Part shown: in pieces, positions 1 to 63,438 of the stretch
Numbering within the stretch: position 1 is the stretch's first letter
Layout: each line of letters begins with the position of its first letter
Assembly (NCBI GenBank): GCA_029641185.1
Contig: JAPWGK010000025.1
Location: 62,001-126,000 of the forward strand
Source: Pseudofabraea citricarpa
Taxonomy: Eukaryota; Ascomycota; Leotiomycetes; Helotiales; Dermateaceae
Direction: 5' to 3'
Length of the DNA stretch: 64,000 bases
Translations under genes and position numbers: made by a program
The notes under the pieces: model-generated
What the model saw: the letters and a program-made list of their open reading frames with translations, nothing else
Database searches by the model: none
Told to the model about the DNA's origin: nothing

Positions 1-66
1 AGAAATTGAGAATACCACCGATGATGTGAGTTTGAGACGAGCCACTAATAAGGATCTCACTGACTT

Positions 67-450
67 GTGTCTGTCTCAAAGACCAATATTCACCAGAGGG
101 TTGTGGCTTCCGCAGCAAAACTAAATGACAAGGCCGCTAATTTGCGAAATGCAAACTGTGCCCTTTTGCAAAAGCAGCTAAGTTCTTTTCGAACTCGAGC
201 CCTACGAACAACAGATCGCCTTCTCGAGCTTTACGATCTCGGTCTCTGTTTGGACTTTTACCGTCACGACGAGGGTCTGAAGAATCTCCTGGACTTGGTT
301 CACGAACGGTTTGCTGACCTTATACTTACACGTGATGATTATGGAAATGATGAAGATTGTTTGAATGAGGGAGAAATTGTGCCAAGGTCACAAAAGAGGA
401 GAAAGTCCACAAGCAAGTCTCAGCAACTTTGGAATATCCAAGCGGGATGA
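67..450 (+). CDS. Uncertain ORF, possible 3' exon of a gene to the left
   Basis: This is an open frame of about 127 codons with no ATG at its beginning. It opens at a GTG just after an in-frame stop, and a CAAAG acceptor-like site near 80 could make it a terminal exon. The N-terminal part reads like an amphipathic coiled coil (LNDKAANLRNANCALLQKQL). The C-terminus ends in a basic patch (SQKRRKS). I do not recognise a family. It lies tail-to-tail with the first DUF3328 gene. It may be real, a transposase-tail relic or a chance ORF. Confidence 0.2.
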   Translation: MSVSKTNIHQRVVASAAKLNDKAANLRNANCALLQKQLSSFRTRALRTTDRLLELYDLGLCLDFYRHDEGLKNLLDLVHERFADLILTRDDYGNDEDCLNEGEIVPRSQKRRKSTSKSQQLWNIQAG

Positions 451-583
451 ATACTGGCACGTGTAGGTCTTTCAATAAAACACGATTTACACTTCCCGTT
501 GCGTCAAATGGTATTTGCGAGAGATTGTGACATATTCTTAGGTACTTGCAGGTTTCTTTTGTTCTTACTTCTTCTAGCAATTC

Positions 584-1377
584 TCAGATATAATCTTGTG
601 CTACATCATATAATGATTGGCTGCTGCCACATTGATGTTCTGACCCAACTCCATCCACATACATTATCCCAGAACCATCGACTTTCGTCGTCTCTTTTGT
701 TCCGTCTGCGTGGCAAAGGATAGACTATTGGCGAAACCAAGTCAGTAAACATTCTGTCTTAGATCCATGGACTATTTGTTTTCAGTTGGCCACCTTGGAA
801 CTTGCGATGATTTGCAAGAAAGCATTGCATTTCATTTCAAAGTAAATAAGCTTACCTGTCTCAAGTAGTCTAGACAATGAGTCCAATGTGGCTGACCCTC
901 TGCGACGTGTACTTCGTCATTATTCCTTCCGTCATGATGATGTTCTCCCTCGTGATGTCCTTTGTTGCCAGTTTGTAATGCCATACGAAGCATCTGCAAA
1001 CAATGTAGCTGATGAAACATAGCAATTCCGTATGCCTGTGGTGAATCACTGTTGTCATACTGGAGGCCAAATCCACCATTCGAAGGGAGTAAGTTTTGCC
1101 ATAGACTATCAAAGCTCGGGGATAAATCTTGATACGAGTGGTTTGAGATAAGCACTCTGGTGGTTTGGCTTGTTTTTATAATAGTTGATGTGGACAAAGA
1201 CGCAGACGAGGTGTTGATTCCATGATTTATGGAAGAAGGAGAAGTAAATACTGGCCAGAAAGATTTGACAGAAATTTCTATTGTGTTGTGAATGTAGTAG
1301 CCCAACAAAATAGATGCAAAAATGAAAATCAAGATCGTAAAATAAATCGACCTTCGAAAGTTCACAGGAATTGACAT
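584..1377 (-). CDS. UstYa-like DUF3328 oxidase A of the RiPP cluster
   Basis: UstYa/DUF3328 proteins are membrane-anchored oxidases that cyclise or hydroxylate ribosomal peptides in the secretory pathway. Two exons give about 220 aa: 856-1377 and 584-724, with a 131 bp GTAAGC...CAATAG intron. I chose ATG 1377 because it puts a short N-terminus directly before a membrane segment (SIYFTILIFIFASILLGYYI). The same frame is open to an ATG at 1572, which would add 65 aa. The lumenal part has a 'SLWQNLLP' region, the first HxxHC (HQLHC) in YGIAMFHQLHCLQMLR, a His-rich insert, and the second motif (HWTHC) followed by LDYLRQ. Exon 2 continues SILCHADGT and ends with a family-like GxGxxHQC segment and LYD. 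The second exon is easy to miss. It is convergent with the ORF to its left and co-oriented with oxidase B. Confidence 0.85.
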
Positions 1378-1859
1378 TTTCGACTTGTGTTTCTTTTCGA
1401 TGCCTTGTGAGTTTCTGGGTATCAGGGGGTTATTGGATTTTCGAGCTCTTGTCACTTTCAGCCTTAGGCAGTATCCCAGCTGCATAATACTCACATCGTA
1501 GATCCCACCTGTTCCAATCGACCGGGGCGTGGTTTTGTCGAATTGGTTAGTCCAGTCACATCTTTCGATCATGATGTCAAACGAGGCTTTGGCCTATTAG
1601 ATTTCCCGTGGTGATTATTCTGCTCGCAGCTTGCAGCATGCCTGGTCAGAGCACTTTCCAGAGATTTTTAGATGTCGGTACCCGTTTTTCAACCCTTGGC
1701 TTACTTTGCATAAACGATAAGGCTAACATCCCTGGATTACATTACATGAACCATAAAGCTAATCTAAGCGATCTTACTATCAAACTCTTATCTGATTTTT
1801 ACGTGATATTTTTTAACAGATTTAAACAAGGATATAGAAATAATTATTTTATAATATGA

Positions 1860-2217
1860 AATTAGGACATGGGGTAATTTCCTCAGATAATTAATTAGGC
1901 TTTTAATTTATTTTAAATTCTTTTTATAAGATAAGTATTGAATAATAATTTGTAATACTAGAACCTATAAATATTCCCTTATATTATATTATATTGAAAT
2001 TAAATATCTGTTAAATATAAATATTTTAGTAATCTATTTATAGGTTAATATTATAGTATTTATTAGAAATAAAATTAGTATTATAATATATTTATAAGTA
2101 AGAAAATAATTTAGGGTCTTCTTTTTATCTATTTAGTATTTACAAATTATAATATAAAAAGCGAGGTAATTTCAGTCTATATTCAGATTTGATAATAATT
2201 TTGACAACTTGTATATC
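1860..2217. other. AT-rich gene-free block
   Basis: The stretch between oxidases A and B is very rich in A and T, with runs such as TATATTATATTATATT. I see no coding potential beyond chance. It may be a decayed repeat (RIP-like) or simply a terminator region; the sequence alone does not decide. Confidence 0.4.
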
Positions 2218-3239
2218 TCAAATATCCATGTTCCGTAGTTGTTGCCACTCCCGGATTTTATCATAATTCCTACAAGTATGATGCACCATCCAATCAGAAT
2301 CATATTGAGGCTCACCATCAATATATTCTCTTATGTACAATGGGATGGGGGTGGTGTCTCCGTAGCATATGAGGACTTGACGAAGATAATCGATACAATG
2401 GTCTGTTCCAAAAGTTAACATGAATCATCCTGAGAATACATCGACGGCTTTATAGTAATAAAGGACTTACCTGTATGCTTCCGAGCAGTAATTTCCGTCT
2501 CGTTCATTGGATTACTATTCCCCCACGCCACTCTTCTAATTCTATCCTAGAATATGTTAAAGGATTTTTATACGTGATGAAGTTTGAGGCTTACTAGACA
2601 CTACATAAAAGCCATTAGCAATGAACCCTTTCTAGTCCTGGAAAAGACATACATGTATTTGGTGGTACATAGCAATGACAACAGGGTATTTGGTATGGTC
2701 CTTATGATAAGGAATAGTGGGATCAGGCAATTTCAAGTTCTCTTCTTCAGTGAGAACGTAGGTACCAACTACACACAGGATAAGTTTTGGCATATATCAT
2801 TCCGTTTAAAGAAACTTACCATCAAACAGCTTCTCCCAAGCTGCATCAATTTCGGGTGTTGGTTTGCCTTCATATCCATCATTGGGAATTTCGGCGGAGT
2901 GAAAAGCACTTGGCTTGAAGATTACATCGTCAAGCTGTAGCCAGGGTTCGACTGAGGCTTAATTGCCATCCAATTTAGTATAAATCCATTTAAATTATAT
3001 AGGATCTTCTACTCACATAGCTCAGTAGGAAATGCTTTGGGCGTTATAGGACGTGCTCGGAATAAGAGAAAGAAGTAAAATATAGTATAGAGAGAAATAA
3101 TCAGACCATGAATAAGCCAAAGAGACCTGTTGTATGGTTTCCGCGCTGATACGATTTCTCTAGACTCATCCTCAATTGAATACTCTTGTAACAAGCCTTC
3201 TTTTGAAGATGCTTCAGACTCAGACATGGGTGAGACCAT
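2218..3239 (-). CDS. UstYa-like DUF3328 oxidase B of the RiPP cluster
   Basis: This gene is only visible after splicing. Exons on the minus strand are 3017-3239, 2820-2957, 2653-2768, 2595-2600, 2471-2546 and 2218-2402. They sum to 744 nt, in frame, for 247 aa. The order is a charged cytosolic N-terminus, a membrane segment (LIHGLIISLYTIFYFFLLF), a lumenal region with FKPSAFHSAEIP and PTPEIDAAWEKL, and then the first HxxHC (HQIHC). The second motif (HTDHC) is followed by IDYLRQVLICYGDTT, and the family C-terminal HTCRNYDKIREW closes the protein. The fourth exon is only 6 nt and falls inside the first HxxHC region. The alternative of reading through would require a 27 nt intron, which is too short. 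ATG 3227 is another possible start. The gene is divergent from the precursor gene across 558 bp, so the two may share a promoter. Confidence 0.85.
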
Positions 3240-3696
3240 AATTCTAGCATGAGAGTAATACCAAATAATGAAAACTTTTGGCAGTGAAAATAATGAGGAT
3301 ACTGTAAGAACGCAGACAAAACATGGAGGAAACGAAAAAGCAATAAAAAAAAAGAGTTGTCGGCGCCACTCTTGCAACGCTTCACCGCCGCTGTCAAAAT
3401 CGCATGATTCCGTAGTACGCTAAAAGATGACTTTATCATGAGTTGGCCACATGCAACTGTGAGATCCTCATTGCATGATGACATTCCTCGCTGCATAATT
3501 TAGCCTCGTGTATATGCCCTGGATACAGCGTCAGCACCATAACAGAATGAGGCAGTTCATCCCAAACGGGGTGTCGATCAAATCACGTAAAGAATTCAAG
3601 AAATTAGGCGAGCAACCGATCACAGAAGTGGGCATTAAATCATAGAGGAGTAGGTGGTAGAATATTGATTAACATGTATCGGATTTTTGTTTATCA

Positions 3697-3702
3697 TATA
3701 TA
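3697..3702 (+). promoter_or_regulatory. Candidate TATA box of the RiPP precursor gene
   Basis: TATATA lies about 96 bp before the precursor ATG, inside the 558 bp divergent promoter shared with oxidase B. Position and sequence fit a fungal TATA element; this is inference only. Confidence 0.35.
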
Positions 3703-3797
3703 ACGTGAATACCCGCGAGTGACCAAGAAGAGAAACTTGTCCTCCAAACAACACACTTCACATTCTCAACTACTCTGCCAAATCATCCTCTTTCAAC

Positions 3798-4292
3798 ATG
3801 AAGCTCTCTTCTGTACTCGTCACTAGTATCTTGGCCTTCGTGGCATCTGCTGCACCAGTCGCAAAACGAGCTCCAGAATTCCCTTTCCCAACCTACGCCG
3901 GTGTAGAGAAGCGAGAGGCAGAGGAGAAGCGGGAATTCCCATTTCCAACCTATGCCGGTGTTGAAAAGAGGGAGCCCAAGCCAGAGTTCCCATTCCCAAC
4001 CTATGCCGGTGTAGAGAAGCGAGGGGCAGAGGAGAAGCGGGAATTCCCTTTCCCAACCTATGCCGGTGTAGAGAAGAGAGAGGCAGAGGAGAAGCGAGAA
4101 TTCCCTTTCCCAACTTACGCTGGAGTTGAGAAGAGGGAGCCCAAGCCAGAGTTCCCATTCCCAACCTACGCTGGAGTTGAGAAGAGGGAGCCCAAGCCAG
4201 AGTTCCCGTTCCCAACTTATGCCGGGGTTGAGAAACGAGAATTTCCCTTCCCAACCTACGCTGGCGTTGAAAAGAGGGAGGTCACCGCTTAG
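3798..4292 (+). CDS. Kexin-processed repeat RiPP precursor peptide (dikaritin-type)
   Basis: This single-exon gene encodes 164 aa and starts at an ATG followed at once by a secretion signal (residues 1-19 or so, ending ASAAP) and a first KR at 23-24. The rest is eight copies of EFPFPTYAGV at residues 27-36, 46-55, 63-72, 82-91, 101-110, 118-127, 135-144 and 148-157. Each copy is followed by EKR. The spacers after EKR are EAEEKR or GAEEKR (three times), EPKP (three times) or nothing. The repeats are identical in protein but differ at many synonymous positions. This is the architecture of fungal RiPP precursors such as those of ustiloxin, phomopsin, asperipin and epichloecyclin: signal peptide, repeated cores and Kex2 sites, next to UstYa genes. 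The single Tyr in each core is a likely modification site by analogy. The product and its activity are unknown. No other modifying enzyme class is seen nearby. Confidence 0.9.
   Translation: MKLSSVLVTSILAFVASAAPVAKRAPEFPFPTYAGVEKREAEEKREFPFPTYAGVEKREPKPEFPFPTYAGVEKRGAEEKREFPFPTYAGVEKREAEEKREFPFPTYAGVEKREPKPEFPFPTYAGVEKREPKPEFPFPTYAGVEKREFPFPTYAGVEKREVTA
3873..4281 (+). repeat. Coding tandem repeat, 8 copies in units of 39-57 nt
   Basis: The eight imperfect direct repeats encode the cores of the precursor. Unit length is 57, 51 or 39 nt according to the spacer. Third-codon positions vary among the copies (TAC/TAT, GCC/GCT, GGT/GGA/GGG/GGC) while the core amino acids do not. The minus-strand reading frame across this stretch is a mirror of the repeat and is not a gene. 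Confidence 0.9.
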
Positions 4293-5061
4293 TCCGGATA
4301 CTCATCGGTCAGTCTTAATCGCAACAACGCAAATTACATCCAGTTTTAACTAAAAACCAGATATAAAATCCGAATACTTGTGACTACTCTATAGAAGGAT
4401 GTTTTGGTGTGTGGGGAGGTGTGGTGAGGGGCAGGAGGCTCAAGGATACTCAACGATCCAATGAGGTAGACTTTAGTAGCTGTATCTCAATATTCAACAT
4501 AAACAATAGATATGAATCCAAAATTTGTCACAATCAAATATTAATAATCTTATTTCGTATCGAATAATTATCCGGTCAATTTCGAAATTAATGTTTCTCG
4601 TACTGAAGAAGTAATTTCTGGATGAAGAATTATTGCTGGTTCATTGCCAAAAGAAAGAAAAACCACATTACACACACAGTTCCAACCAATTGACGGTAGA
4701 TATTTGTGACATGGCCACTTTCCCCTATAAGTGGGTCCCAACTCAACGTTGCAAGAGGCACAGAAGCGCTGATCTCGTCAAATGGACTACATTTGCAATA
4801 CGAACCATCTTGTCAGCGCTAGTCAGGGGTCTTATGCACGGCAATGTCAACTGCAAGATCACCATGCATAAATACGCTTATTCTAGAGGATTGCCGGATG
4901 TTGCCTACGGATATACATCCCCCTGAACAGAGAACCGAGGGGCGTATCCCAGATAGCGACCCAATCCTGATAGCAACATAGCTTTCCTAATGTTTACATA
5001 GCCGGTTCCGACTTCAGTGGAAGTAAATCTTTTGTAACGAAATTTCGGCTGAAAAGTGAAG
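4293..5061. other. Intergenic, no gene seen
   Basis: This stretch holds the precursor 3' region, an AT-rich patch near 4490-4600 and the upstream region of oxidase C. The open frame at 4633-4926 has no family features and I treat it as chance. The GGGGCGT at 4939-4945 recurs upstream of oxidase A. Confidence 0.5.
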
Positions 5062-6097
5062 ATGTCTTCCTCAGAACAGGAAACAAAATACTCTCAGGAT
5101 TTAGATGCCGGGATAATCAATCTTCGGAAAGCTCTTCGCGAAGAAATCGAGATAGAACTCGAGCACGGCCACAAAGACTCATATTCGCTGAAATACCGTT
5201 TTTGGATCAAAACATTTTGTTGGCTGACAGGTCTCGCTGTGTTTCTCGTAATTATTATAAGTACCGTTTTGTATTACGGCCACAAAGAATTCAAAGCAAC
5301 GCTGGTACAAGAATTAAATGGCCTGGTTCCACAATGTAAGGAGCATTCGAAAACTTGCACAGATTGTACTGACACTTCTTTGTAGTTTCTACACACATAG
5401 TCACATTTGAGCCAGATCATAGATTTGAGCCTAATCGTGATCCAACTGATGATGGAAAAGCTAGTCTAAGAGCATGGATGAGTTTAATTCCAAGTATTTC
5501 TTCCTCTCTTAATCTTCCTCTCACGAAAAAGACGATGCAGAATTGCTTTATGATTGGCCACCCACCACTTCGATATCCCATGTTTTATTAAATGACTGAT
5601 CTCATTCAATGACATTCATGCTGACGCTGATTTTATAGAGGGCGCAGGAACAATCAACATCACGAAGAACGCGAAATATGATCTTCCTCCAGAAGTACCG
5701 CTGCCGGGTCATCATGGAATTTACTCTGTTTCAGTAATGCATCAAATGCACTGTTTGGTAAATATCTCGGCTCCTTTATTTAATTGAGAAGGCTAAATTG
5801 TAAAAGCATTCCATCATGTCAGCATATGTTACTCTCTCTAAAAACGAAACCATGCGACAGCAAGATCCTTACTTCGATGAACTTAACTTGAAAGCTTTCC
5901 ACATCGACCACTGCTTTGATTACTTACGGCAGTCACTTATGTGTTGCGGTGATACCGCATTGGAAGGCAAGGGCGAATCTTTTCCGCCGGAGATTATTGG
6001 CATTGATGGCTGGGGTGGAAAACATGTATGCAAGAATTATGATGAGATATTCGCATGGACGGAAGGGAACCGAGCTGTTGACTATAGACATTTGTAA
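5062..6097 (+). CDS. UstYa-like DUF3328 oxidase C of the RiPP cluster
   Basis: Four exons, 5062-5335, 5386-5493, 5639-5757 and 5807-6097, sum to 792 nt, in frame, for 263 aa. The start is ATG 5062; an in-frame GTG six bases earlier is not needed. A soluble N-terminus of about 55 aa is followed by one membrane segment (WLTGLAVFLVIIISTVLYYG). The lumenal domain has VTFEPDHRFEP, WMSLIPKGAGTI and YSVSVMHQMHCL (first HxxHC). The second motif is HIDHC, followed by FDYLRQSLMCCGDTALEG, and the C-terminal HVCKNYDEIFAW is typical of the family. The third intron follows HQMHCL, a common intron position in this family. The gene is co-oriented with the precursor and about 770 bp downstream. The family is implicated in oxidative macrocyclisation of the peptide; which bond this copy forms cannot be told from sequence. 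Confidence 0.88.
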
Positions 6098-6525
6098 GTA
6101 GGATGGATGATTATATCTTCGAATTTTATAGTATTCAGATCTATTAGAACAAGAATTTACGATTGAAAACTTTTAGATGGTCTCCTAAATGGATAAAAAT
6201 CACCCCGTACACGAGTTGCCATTTCAATTTAATACCATTCAATTGGATTGTGTTTTCCAAGTTAAAGATTCATATTTTAGCTTTTCTTGTAAGACTGAGG
6301 TACTAACATTCATTTTTATAAGATATCTTCCTAAGCTAATCCACTTGCCTCGTGCAACTGAACTTGCCCCACTTCAATTTTCTTTCTAAGCATCACGCAA
6401 GACAAATGAAAATATTAACGATAGATATAGCCTGCTGAAAGTCTATTTCGCTTCCAATTCAAGCTTTAGTGCAAGACATCCATTTCCGAATCCCTTGACC
6501 ATCTTCCTCCATTGGCCGAATATGC
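6098..6525. other. Intergenic, no gene seen
   Basis: A tail-to-tail spacer between oxidase C and the PAN-like protein gene. It is AT-rich and holds only a short chance ORF at 6189-6389. Confidence 0.5.
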
Positions 6526-7281
6526 TTATCCAATTTGCGAATTGCCGTAGCAGAAATTGCTTCCATCACTTGGATACTTTTGGGAGAAGAAGGTGCCACT
6601 TTTATTTGGCTTAACATTTAGGAAAGAATGGTATTGTTCACAAAGACCAGTCTTCGCGTTGAAAGAGTATGAGATACACTGCGTTATCACAGCACAGTAA
6701 ATCTGACACTGCAATATGTCGGACACTGTCAATGAACCAAAAAAGTTCTCTGTCATTCCGGACGAGGCAGTGCCCTCTACGTTACAGCCGTCAATCTTCT
6801 TCGTCGGCAATACACTCGAGACTGTTGTCGATGAAGGTTTCTGACTAAGTGTTCCGGATGTTGTAGTTGAAGCTTTTTGAATAAATGTTGTTGGGATCGT
6901 ATTTATTTTATCTGTGGGTAGAGGTTTTCCAGTCGATAAAATGGTTGTGACGAAGGGTATGGTCCTTGTCTTGTAAGATGTTGTATTTCTCGTTACTACG
7001 CCTTGTGTTTCCAGCCACAAGTAAGCAGATCCCGAGAAAGTCATTGTCAGGGCGTTGGGAATAATTGTCTTCACGCCTGGAGTTTCAATCTCGGTTTCAA
7101 TTGTTATTGGTGCGGTTGTAGTTATCGCAGATAGTATTGTGTCTGTAATTGTCGAATATTTTGTGATAACTGTCCGTTTGTCTTCATTTTCAGGACCTCC
7201 GAAGACAGGATCAATGGCAAGCAAGCCAAGTACAAGAAGTGCTTTGTATGAAGGCATTGTTTTTGAACTCTTGGTTTTCAA
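6526..7281 (-). CDS. Secreted Ser/Thr-rich protein with PAN/apple-like C-terminus
   Basis: This intronless ORF encodes 251 aa. A signal peptide is clear (ALLVLGLLAIDPVFGG), starting from either ATG 7281 or ATG 7257. A kexin-like KR follows at about residue 35-36. Residues about 36-165 are dense in Thr, Ser and Ile (linker-like, likely O-glycosylated). The C-terminal 80 aa carry a pattern of Cys (DGCNVEG, LQCQIYCAV, TQCISYSF, TGLCEQYH, NFCYG) that resembles PAN/apple-type binding modules of fungal secreted proteins. The role is probably cell-wall or carbohydrate association; no enzyme motif is visible. It lies next to the RiPP cluster but has no evident link to it. Confidence 0.65.
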   Translation of the reverse strand: MKTKSSKTMPSYKALLVLGLLAIDPVFGGPENEDKRTVITKYSTITDTILSAITTTAPITIETEIETPGVKTIIPNALTMTFSGSAYLWLETQGVVTRNTTSYKTRTIPFVTTILSTGKPLPTDKINTIPTTFIQKASTTTSGTLSQKPSSTTVSSVLPTKKIDGCNVEGTASSGMTENFFGSLTVSDILQCQIYCAVITQCISYSFNAKTGLCEQYHSFLNVKPNKSGTFFSQKYPSDGSNFCYGNSQIG

Positions 7282-8289
7282 GTAAATGGAGTAGAGAAAT
7301 GATTGCCGTTGAATCCCGATTATCTATGTGAAATATGATGATGTTTTAATGGCCTTGATGAGATGATTTACTGGAGAGTTATTGAGAGGAATATCTTCAA
7401 CTGTTAAATAGACTGCCCTATCACACGTTCAGTGCATTTGGGATGACGTGTTAGACGAGCATGGCCTCGGTCATCTCGAATAGCCCACAGAGCAAAGTTC
7501 TAGAACATAGTGACGGAGACACCGCCATGCGATGATACTAAAGGGTCTATGCCCAACTTCATTCTCTTTGGGAGGGGTGTCCGGATTTCGCATAGTGAAA
7601 TTTCAGCGATTACGCTAACCACTCGCTAACCATACCCGTCAGGTATTTCTTCCGTTCTTGGTCTTTATGTCAAATACTTTCCTTAATGCATTGAGTAAAA
7701 TCAGGTACAGATCAACTAGATCGAAGTCCAATTTGGGGTGGCTTTCGTGTTCCAGATGGAAGTGTGGACAATGAGTGCCACTGTCATGACTATCGACATG
7801 AAATCTCATCTTAAATACCGGATTTAGAATTGTCTATTGGTGATACTATATCTATTTATTACTTCGATTCTTTACTTTTATGGCTCTATTTTGGCCATTT
7901 CCACGTCGGTTGTTGGTTGCTGATAGACTGGCCAGTCTGGTCTATAGGGAGCGCATCGTGGAATTGGTGTCTTAAAAGGATCAAGTTCTTATCCGATTAC
8001 ATACCTCTTCTAGGTTAGCATATCCTAAGTAGCGCCAGAACCAACGAAGTCAAATGTTTTAACGGCGACAAGGATTCCAAGCAATAATTAGGAGCGGGTG
8101 GTTTGCTCGCTAAATGTCAAGGCACAGAAGATATTTTAGCCGACAAACTTTTGGAGGGTAAAATATGTCTTTGCACTCTACCAAGTAAATAAAATTTCTA
8201 ATCTCAGAGCATTATATCAAATTGGGTAACTCTGGATTACTCCAGTCTAGTGCCTGATAATTATTACTTACAATAGCTAAAATTATAAT
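7282..8289. other. Intergenic, about 1 kb, no gene seen
   Basis: This is the upstream region of the PAN-like gene and the 3' side of the GH1 gene. ORFs here are short and unlike any family I know. Confidence 0.5.
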
Positions 8290-60716: not shown

Positions 60717-61680
60717 CTGTCTGTCTGCTTGATTGATCGTTTTCTTTCGATCGAGTTCTTTTTCTTTTTATGGTGGTGGTGGTGGGTGAGATGGCGGGCC
60801 TCGCTTATTCTTTTATTTTTTTCTTTTGTGGGTAGGTGAATGAAGGAAGGTAGAGAGGCGAGATAAGACGAGAGTGACAAAGGGATTTTAGAAGAGGAGA
60901 AATACTTTTAATTCGAATAATACACAGGTAAATCTTAGCTAAATTCGTACGTACACTTGAGATAACCTCTCTTTTCTTCAACTTTCTTACATATGGTAGG
61001 GTCGAGGATTTTACTTCGAAGTATCTTTTTTCTGACGGTTAATCGGGCAGTAAAAGGAAACAGAGATGCCGTCGGAGGTTCTTCCTTGGTCTTAGCTTAA
61101 GTAGGGAAGATGGTTTCTATCTGGATTGGATTTGTATCACCGCATATTATTATTTTCTCTTCCTTTACCTTTCTGAGAATAAGAGATAATGAATTTTATA
61201 TATTTAGCCGCGTTTTAAATATTTTCGCTCTGGCATTTTAATACGAAAAGAAACTCTCCAGCTTGACGCTTCTATAAGTGGCCTGCTTTCGAATCTCTTT
61301 TGCTAGACGTAAGCAGAGTCAGTGCGTTTCGAAAGCTGGAGGTTAAGTCTAAACAGGGAGAAATCAGAGGGAGGAAGATATATATATAATCTTCATATTT
61401 CTACTTCATACATCCAGGTACGACTCGACTCGACTCGACTCGACGATAACGGAAACTAGGCTACCTACCCAGGTACGCTCCGAGATTCAGCACTTACCCA
61501 TTGAAATTCCCGATACCCAGCCTGAGGTGGGCAGCACAAGATGATCGATTAATGCAAGCGAGCTCGATTAACATGTTACCAAGTGATATTTTTATAACAG
61601 GCCCATGGGCACGCCATGACTGATTGTGTAACTACTGTGCTCGATAAAAAAACGTCAAAGTCCTGCAATGAGCGTCTAAT
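60717..61680. other. Intergenic, about 1 kb, no gene seen
   Basis: AT-rich with simple sequence, including a five-fold CGACT repeat at 61421-61444. Confidence 0.45.
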
Positions 61681-63438
61681 CTACAAATCCTCAATCTCGA
61701 ACCTCACAAGCAACGAGCACTTCGTTTCCCTCCCTTTCGGATCCAGCATGCGAATAAAGCTCCAGCCCGTAGCGGCATACATGATCCTGACGGCCGAGAC
61801 AGCGAGGACGGGGTTGGTGGCATAGCTATCATCACTCTTGATAAGCAAGCGCAAGAAAACCATCTCGTTGTCTTCGTAATCCCACTCCAGCACCTCGTTC
61901 CAGATGGGATCTTTCGGCAGCGGGTTCTCGCCCTTGTGCAGGAAGCCAAGCTTGTGATGCTTGTAGGGCTCCGTCTTGCGCTTCGGCGGCGACTTTGCCA
62001 CGTCGTCTGGATGCACAAGCATGCACGTCACGTACGGCTTGATATCGTCGGTATCTCGCCCTTCTGGCACCGGCACGTCGGATGCTCCTGCGACGTGCAC
62101 GCGGAGCTTCTTCTTCTTCCCAGTCGCGAGATTCCCGCTCCCGCCCGCACGTAAAGCTGCCGGCTTCAACACGTATCCGTCGGATCCGCTGAAGAGCGCC
62201 TCATTGATCTGCATACCCGCACCAAAGGTCTGCCAGTTGAGAGCGCATATCTGAGCACCGACCCCCCAGTACGGAACCGGGTTGAGGTTTGCAGACGAGA
62301 TGCGCGTGCCCTTGGGAAAGACGCGCATCAGGTGCTTGGAGTTGTGGCAGCCGATCTTGGCACTCGCCGTCGCCATGTGAGATGCTAATCCGGATTCCGA
62401 TACGTTGATGAGATGATGATGCGGACCGTTCTTCAGCGCCGCTTCGTCGTACCACGAATTGTCGCTCGGCTTTACTGACTGGGCGTACACACCGAGATCA
62501 GCTAGCTCCGGCACGATGACAGCAGTTGGCGCAGCCTTCTTCTTCTCCTTGTACTCTTTCCTGGCATTGTTTTCTTCCTCGTCTCCATCGTCAGAGCTGG
62601 TGTCATCATCGTCATCAAGTTCGCCGGGAATGTGATGCTCAACAATGACGACGATCTTGGATCCGAGCTCATTTAGGAATACCTGCTCGTCACTCCCCTC
62701 CTGCTCTCGGTGACCTTCTTCTCGCACAGCCTTGCTTAGGAGCCGATCTCCCCAGACCTCCTTCATGATCTGAACAAGACGCAGCTGACCGTTAGCATTA
62801 CAATGGTTCTCTAACGACAAGAGAACTGGCGCCGCTTGATTGCCCTGTTCTTTAGTAGATGCAGCTAATTCCTTGTCGTAGAAATCTCGCATCACCTCAC
62901 AGACCGAGCGGAAGCTGATGTTAGAGACCAGCGTATAGCCATGGGTGACTTTGGGCTCATCGACATTCTCATCGTTGTCCCACGCATCAATCTCAACACA
63001 ACGCGCTCCAGCATTCAGCACCGTCTCATAGGCTTCGGCCGAAGAAGTCCCGTAGAGCTGATGCGCCATCAAGTACGTGTTGTGACTCGAGCTAATGAAG
63101 TACTCCGGCAAGGGATGGGATCTGTCTGTGAGGTACGAGGGCACATCGATATGCGGCTTGTCGAGGAGATCTCGCAAGGCACCCGTCGGTTCATAGACGT
63201 CTTCCTTTCCCGCATCTTCGCCGGGGAGCACTTTCTCGCTGACGAGGAATGATCTCAAGGCATGGCTGACCCTGAGCTGGTTCTTGGTGATGCCAGACTG
63301 TCGAGCACCGTGGCCGCCTCCTCCAACACTAGCCGACGTGACCTCCTCTCCCGCCTCGTCATTCTCATCGATCCGTTTTGGCTTTGCGAAAGGATTCAGT
63401 TCAGCTAGGCGTGAGGTGAGATTCGGCGACCCTGACAT
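61681..63438 (-). CDS. Phosphoinositide-specific phospholipase C
   Basis: PI-PLC cleaves phosphatidylinositol 4,5-bisphosphate into diacylglycerol and inositol trisphosphate. ATG 63438 (MSGSPNLTSRL) gives 585 aa. The frame is open further to 63735, but that part looks like untranslated leader. The X domain has HPLPEYFISSSHNTYL (catalytic His), GARCVEIDAWD and THGYTLVSNISFRSVCEVM. LLSLENHCNANGQ follows, then an acidic linker (DDDDDTSSDDGDEEENN). The Y domain has LGVYAQSVKPS, MRVFPKGTRISSANLNP, YWGVGAQICALNWQT and GSDGYVLKP. A C2 domain closes the protein (VTCMLVHPDD to RFEIEDL). There is no PH domain or EF-hand visible, a compact form seen in fungal and plant enzymes. Housekeeping signalling gene. 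Confidence 0.93.
   Translation of the reverse strand: MSGSPNLTSRLAELNPFAKPKRIDENDEAGEEVTSASVGGGGHGARQSGITKNQLRVSHALRSFLVSEKVLPGEDAGKEDVYEPTGALRDLLDKPHIDVPSYLTDRSHPLPEYFISSSHNTYLMAHQLYGTSSAEAYETVLNAGARCVEIDAWDNDENVDEPKVTHGYTLVSNISFRSVCEVMRDFYDKELAASTKEQGNQAAPVLLSLENHCNANGQLRLVQIMKEVWGDRLLSKAVREEGHREQEGSDEQVFLNELGSKIVVIVEHHIPGELDDDDDTSSDDGDEEENNARKEYKEKKKAAPTAVIVPELADLGVYAQSVKPSDNSWYDEAALKNGPHHHLINVSESGLASHMATASAKIGCHNSKHLMRVFPKGTRISSANLNPVPYWGVGAQICALNWQTFGAGMQINEALFSGSDGYVLKPAALRAGGSGNLATGKKKKLRVHVAGASDVPVPEGRDTDDIKPYVTCMLVHPDDVAKSPPKRKTEPYKHHKLGFLHKGENPLPKDPIWNEVLEWDYEDNEMVFLRLLIKSDDSYATNPVLAVSAVRIMYAATGWSFIRMLDPKGRETKCSLLVRFEIEDL

Follow-up and report, generated by a model that had tools for sequence, protein, structure and literature searches.

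What does a fungus make from a gene which encodes the same eleven amino acids eight times and is enclosed by genes of the UstYa family? This question is raised by a locus near the left end of a 64,000-nucleotide stretch of Pseudofabraea citricarpa DNA (the window), i.e., positions 62001-126000 of contig C18 (JAPWGK010000025.1) in a genome of 44 Mb and 43 contigs. Very probably the locus is a cluster for a dikaritin-type ribosomally synthesized and post-translationally modified peptide (RiPP): the precursor would be processed to EFPFPTYAGVE, and UstYa enzymes would oxidize this peptide, most likely with formation of a tyrosine cross-link. An earlier note on the same DNA had come to the dikaritin-type reading. 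It is supported by the matches of the neighboring proteins to PF11807 (DUF3328, the UstYa family) and by the layout of the precursor, a signal peptide followed by Kex2 repeats. The locus is real, partly conserved and, by the gene models, intact. Proteolysis, copper chemistry and cross-linking of EFPFPTYAGVE would follow from what has been established for the family.

The precursor has the features of a Kex2-processed repeat protein (KEP), i.e., a hydrophobic N-terminus followed by repeats which are separated by Lys-Arg (KR). The signal peptide was judged from hydrophobicity. Eight exact EFPFPTYAGVE units, each followed by KR, start at positions 3876, 3933, 3984, 4041, 4098, 4149, 4200, and 4239. 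The eight-repeat precursor between kexin sites had been claimed before; what is conserved is the 11-mer rather than FPFPTYAGV. Tandem Repeats Finder, applied to the entire 64 kb, reports the array (3873-4240) in three of its twelve rows with scores of 303-520, the strongest repeat of the window; the remaining nine rows score 52-90. The units are identical as protein. As DNA they vary at 10 of 33 columns, all of them third codon positions. At least 14 substitutions are required among the eight 33-nt units and every one is synonymous, at an average of 7.67 synonymous vs. 25.33 non-synonymous sites. The corresponding P of about 1e-9 assumes independent and equally likely changes and is rough because of shared ancestry or gene conversion among the units, though the trend is plain. 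Since the DNA differences are exclusively synonymous, the whole 11-mer, both Glu residues included, appears to be kept by selection.

The core peptide sequence appears to be new. The strings FPFPTYAGV, PFPTYAG, FPTYAG, and PTYAGVEKR are absent from the main texts of the 5.39 million papers searched, which agrees with the earlier statement that the core differs from the characterized ones; the search did not extend to supplementary lists, and the sequence could already stand in the KEP tables of one survey (PMC7329392). The precursor contains no Pfam domain at E≤0.1. Compared with its own genome it matches itself and, very weakly, one place on contig C39 (E 1.42).

The second pillar are the UstYa genes. 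The GT-AG introns of UstYa-A, -B, and -C splice to open reading frames (ORFs), and each protein carries two HxxHC motifs and one strong hydrophobic N-terminal stretch, a helix by hydrophobicity only. Thus, the three flanking DUF3328 genes are intact as initially described. A PF11807 search had been set beforehand as the test of this assignment, and all three proteins score above the cut-off of 25 bits (Table 1). With a fourth gene, UstYa-D, outside of the window, the arrangement HxxHC(x)nHxxHC behind a single N-terminal transmembrane helix (by hydrophobicity) is found in all four proteins. Across A through D and two relatives from Phlyctema vagabunda (six aligned rows), a YLRQ stretch and the His and Cys residues of both motifs do not vary; a larger alignment, with 45 of the 48 proteins retrieved as relatives of UstYa-B or -C, shows these His and Cys residues to be at least 90% conserved. 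No close paralogs exist in those parts of this genome that were compared. Among the highest-scoring pieces there, B has about 39% identity over 121 aa (locus L007), C 35% over 122 aa (L002), A 35% over 106 aa, and D 39% over 62 aa.

A predicted model of a relative of UstYa-C (P0007; mean predicted local distance difference test score 78.3, predicted template modeling score 0.67, 45 sequences) assigns the two motifs to successive helices (163-185 and 194-216), with a further helix at 42-79. In this prediction the placement of the motifs would be in line with the description of CctR. A comparison with solved structures identified no clear relative. CctR, a DUF3328 protein, is described as a membrane-associated, O2-using binuclear copper enzyme in which the residues of HxxHC(x)nHxxHC are essential (PMC12435403); for UstY enzymes a 2025 paper reports a dicopper site in the formation of the Tyr ether of asperipin-2a (PMC12186524). 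By analogy with CctR (PMC12435403), the UstYa proteins of this locus would be expected to bind copper and to act in an O2-dependent manner.

Conservation beyond this genome is evident for two of the enzymes. P. vagabunda, like P. citricarpa a member of the Dermateaceae (Helotiales), possesses close relatives of UstYa-B (PVAG01_11367, 81% identity) and UstYa-C (PVAG01_11365, 76%), one tag apart, and both records give contigs of equal size (1,408,082). The next relative of UstYa-B is at 46% (Xylogone), and other relatives of UstYa-C do not exceed 48%. If the PVAG01 tags run in order, one annotated gene sits between the two, and this single tag would fit the place of the precursor. The 247-aa form of UstYa-B is preferred over the 245-aa form, since nearly identical residues occur at this point in the P. 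vagabunda protein. Among the proteins compared, the closest named UstYa relatives of this genome are from Helotiales.

The cluster extends beyond the window and comprises more genes than initially described. Upstream there are the fourth UstYa gene, ABC-transporter ORFs and a bZIP-like gene. Among the four ABC ORFs scanned with Pfam, two match ABC_tran (55.7 and 57.2 bits), one matches ABC_membrane (96.2 bits) and one has no match. They lie just past the left edge; the supposed lack of a transporter was an effect of this edge and is true inside the window only. The exons of the bZIP-like gene are C18:61173-61245, 61295-62025, and 62082-62453, the first outside of the window and the third corresponding to window positions 82-453. 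From their positions one may assume that the bZIP-like gene is a regulator of the pathway and the ABC transporter an exporter. On the right the PAN-like gene marks the border; it was rejected as a cluster member, as were the GH1, GDSL-like and sugar-transporter genes further downstream, which also mark the border. Between UstYa-A and UstYa-B there is a very AT-rich stretch (1701-2230; 20% GC vs. 44% in the window), possibly a mutated repeat remnant.

Table 1. Features of the precursor locus in P. citricarpa (window positions unless a contig is given)
Feature	Position	Strand	Description
Precursor	3798-4292	+	One exon, 164 aa; N-terminus resembling a signal peptide, then KR and eight EFPFPTYAGVE units
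Precursor N-terminal region	3798-3869	+	MKLSSVLVTSILAFVASAAPVAKR; signal-peptide-like hydrophobic stretch, peak VLVTSILAFVA, ends at first KR
Eight core units	3876-4271	+	33 nt each; KR and spacers EAEE, GAEE or EPKP between
UstYa-A	584-1572	-	2 exons (1572-856, 724-584), 285 aa; HQLHC and HWTHC; PF11807 73.5 bits
UstYa-B	2218-3239	-	6 exons, 247 aa (245 aa with alternative acceptor); HQIHC and HTDHC; PF11807 147 bits
UstYa-C	5062-6097	+	4 exons, 263 aa; HQMHC and HIDHC; PF11807 92 bits
UstYa-D	C18:54228-54983 (left of window)	-	214 aa; HQMHC and HVLHC; PF11807 63.1 bits
ABC-transporter ORFs	C18:55561-60133	-	4 of 6 ORFs scanned with Pfam
bZIP-like gene	C18:61173-62453 (3' part = window 1-453)	+	390-aa model; PF07716 bZIP_2 19.3 bits
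PAN-like gene	6526-7287	-	Thr/Ser-rich, secreted-looking; PAN 20.6 bits, just below cut-off 21.4; right cluster border

The end of C18 requires a comment. Positions 1-29878 are mirrored exactly, as the reverse complement, by 30229-60106, with about 350 G-rich, TTAGGG-like bases at the center. Most likely the assembly folded back here at the end of a chromosome; alternatively, this may be a real inverted duplication. Read as a fold-back, UstYa-D and the ABC transporter are counted once and the precursor is located about 36 kb from the chromosome end. A seeming extra UstYa copy at C18:5604-5849 was rejected as a mirror image within this repeat.

How could the precursor be matured? Cutting after KR on paper results in EFPFPTYAGVE-KR four times, EPKP-EFPFPTYAGVE-KR three times and AP-EFPFPTYAGVE-KR once; the other fragments are three EAEEKR/GAEEKR pieces and the tail. 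The spacers AP and EPKP consist of X-Pro dipeptides, and KR removal followed by X-Pro removal leaves EFPFPTYAGVE in eight out of eight cases. In yeast, Ste13-type peptidases remove X-Pro and X-Ala dipeptides from α-factor. The P. citricarpa genome has four exon-level matches to DPPIV_N. Judged from the sequence, all eight copies would thus be trimmed to a single peptide. We propose that the precursor enters the secretory pathway, that Kex2 would cleave after every KR and that a Kex1-like carboxypeptidase and a Ste13-like dipeptidyl peptidase would trim the ends to yield eight copies of EFPFPTYAGVE. Membrane-bound, lumen-facing UstYa proteins, three from the window and the fourth from outside, each with a putative binuclear copper site formed by its pair of HxxHC motifs, would then oxidize the trimmed peptide. 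The single Tyr most likely would give rise to one or more side-chain cross-links, and dehydro or hydroxyl groups would perhaps be introduced as well. The adjoining ABC transporter may export the peptide and the bZIP-like protein may activate the genes.

Whether such a cluster is to be called a dikaritin cluster depends on the definition. A signal peptide and a Kex2-repeat layout define dikaritin precursors, and the broad definition adds UstYa proteins (as given in PMC10512285 and PMC12048977). The strict definition, the gene set of Ding 2016 as told in PMC6514808 and PMC12048977, comprises a tyrosinase and an S41 peptidase. Here, the neighbors of the precursor are UstYa-A, -B, and -C in the window and UstYa-D, all above the PF11807 cut-off and with two motifs each; a tyrosinase plus S41 pair is not part of the cluster on C18. 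Accordingly, this is a dikaritin cluster by the broad definition, not by the older gene set, and pathways of this kind have been described before. A precursor, UstYa genes and a transporter without a tyrosinase also make up the asperipin type, with the transporter linked by position only.

In its mode of action the present cluster would probably be most like that of asperipin-2a from Aspergillus flavus, which comprises a precursor, a single UstYa, a transporter and a reductase (aprA, aprY, aprT, aprR). Both share a Tyr-containing Kex2-repeat core, UstYa and a transporter, and the asperipin-2a gene list contains neither tyrosinase nor peptidase (as listed in PMC6514808). They differ in the core (EFPFPTYAGVE vs. 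FYYTGY) and in the number of UstYa genes (four vs. one); here the transporter is represented by ABC ORFs, and an isoflavone reductase was not recognized among the ORFs scanned. The phomopsin and ustiloxin clusters share the precursor layout and several UstYa genes (five and two, respectively, according to PMC7329392), yet on C18 there is no tyrosinase or S41 match, unlike at a phomopsin-like locus on contig C42 of this genome. Epichloecyclins (gigA) share a repeat precursor with KR; a Tyr-based ring is a feature of the gigA product as described in PMC6514808. In a survey of 1461 fungal strains, 1758 Kex2-repeat precursors near DUF3328 were counted with a mean of 1.7 DUF3328 genes each (PMC7329392). 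Four UstYa genes are on the high side of this mean; phomopsin has five.

Several observations weigh against the assignment as a dikaritin cluster. None of 28 tyrosinase and none of four S41 peptidase exon matches in the genome is on C18, and both are genes of the strict definition. The same searches find tyrosinase and S41 on C42, so their absence from C18 is all the more telling. The earlier note had seen neither tyrosinase nor P450 alongside. With 92 of 297 candidates scored, the genome has at least 103 cytochrome P450 matches; among these, C18 carries one, some 290 kb away from the precursor. A search of about 5.8 billion proteins, with 6033 candidates, found no relative of the precursor at E≤0.1; it recovered no P. 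vagabunda gene even though one is expected there. The latter may lie beyond the lengths that were searched, carry a different core or be another kind of gene. UstYa-A and -D have at most about 35% identity to any protein compared. The bZIP_2 match is below its cut-off of 22.3 bits. The gene models are our own splicing from DNA alone, and the cluster is known here from its genes alone. Among 14 neighboring ORFs scanned with Pfam there are no methyltransferases or flavin enzymes, for which no family-aimed search was made, and no isoflavone-reductase-like gene, a family for which the genome was not searched; the remainder of the window was listed as ORFs only.

It is conceivable, though rather less likely than not to hold in full, that four different UstYa enzymes, each with a binuclear copper site, modify one Pro/Phe-rich 11-mer in the absence of a tyrosinase and generate a multiply modified peptide with a type of cross-link unseen in ustiloxin, phomopsin or asperipin, e.g., from Tyr to a Val, Pro or Phe carbon, and that this is conserved in a lineage which includes an apple-rot fungus.

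A different chemistry in the same kind of cluster is the most serious alternative, overlapping with our explanation: the UstYa enzymes might only hydroxylate or desaturate and no ring would be formed. CctR is reported to be a hydroxylase (PMC12435403), UstYa proteins of the phomopsin pathway are stated to be needed for amino-acid desaturation (PMC10512285), and the core has a single Tyr, no Ile, and Val as the only branched aliphatic residue after Tyr. However, in the four-gene, tyrosinase-free asperipin-2a cluster AprY alone is credited with the Tyr ether rings (PMC6514808), and with four UstYa proteins, reactions of both kinds could take place. We consider the ring-free product to be improbable, at about a one-in-several chance.

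Quite unlikely is a secreted, unmodified signaling or mating peptide comparable to α-factor, the UstYa genes belonging to something else. The KR sites and the X-Ala/X-Pro spacers correspond to the maturation logic of yeast α-factor, and all eight units yield one linear 11-mer. Yet UstYa genes are directly on both sides of the precursor, and no MF_alpha-type or any other Pfam domain was found in it at the threshold given above; a linear pheromone was rejected as the principal explanation. Further, the pheromone-type repeat precursors surveyed are, with three exceptions, not located beside DUF3328, and Tyr in the repeat is more common in UstYa-associated precursors, 65.6% vs. 38.2% (both in the survey PMC7329392). 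Any resemblance to known pheromone peptides was assessed only by visual inspection. Finally, a decayed or silent remnant, for which one could cite the AT-rich stretch inside the cluster and the lack of expression data, is very improbable when all modeled frames are open, the repeat units differ only synonymously and UstYa-B and -C have close relatives in fitting order in another species.

Being compact, with a fully predicted substrate and a contig free of tyrosinase matches, this cluster offers a clean system in which to define the role of each UstYa on one peptide. A 2022 review counts only five reported dikaritins (PMC10512285) against the 1758 Kex2-repeat genes near DUF3328 in the survey of 2020 (PMC7329392). 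As P. vagabunda possesses close relatives of two UstYa enzymes, a comparison of core and enzymes with this species is possible.

The combination of UstYa and Kex2-repeat genes is not confined to this locus. In the genome PF11807 has 46 exon-level matches on 11 contigs, 45 of them above the cut-off; two are the mirror copies of one exon of UstYa-D. Four long stretches with several UstYa matches were scanned, and each contains at least one Kex2-repeat ORF (C18, 126 kb; C42, 80 kb; C22, 60 kb; C28, 32 kb), and in the C18 stretch the present precursor is the only such place. Among eight short loci (L001-L008) one has a Kex2-repeat ORF (L006, overlapping the C42 stretch). These ORFs were called by a simple script with thresholds of its own; ten further UstYa places lay outside of the scan.

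The phomopsin-like precursor on C42 (1064209-1064853, minus strand, in L023) has YVIPFD/YVIPID units and several UstYa matches nearby, an S41 match about 4 kb off (C42:1060570) and a tyrosinase match about 10 kb off (C42:1074557). Further Kex2-repeat ORFs near UstYa are C42:1018446-1019219(+), C22:58370-58798(-), and C28:353811-354161(+), with units around QVGYDQRALY, QGIQGLHNYVTLKVKG, and DWIYPPPDRK, respectively. On C39, a contig without a PF11807 match, a Kex2-repeat ORF with EVGYTY units (ORFs at L036:1900-2262(-), 3529-4314(-), and 6261-6659(-)) has a tyrosinase match about 4 kb away (23.8 bits, cut-off 22.6). It adjoins an ORF of 262 aa with a hydrophobic stretch, one HxxHC motif and no Pfam match. 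This may be a precursor cluster whose UstYa-like enzyme has diverged strongly.

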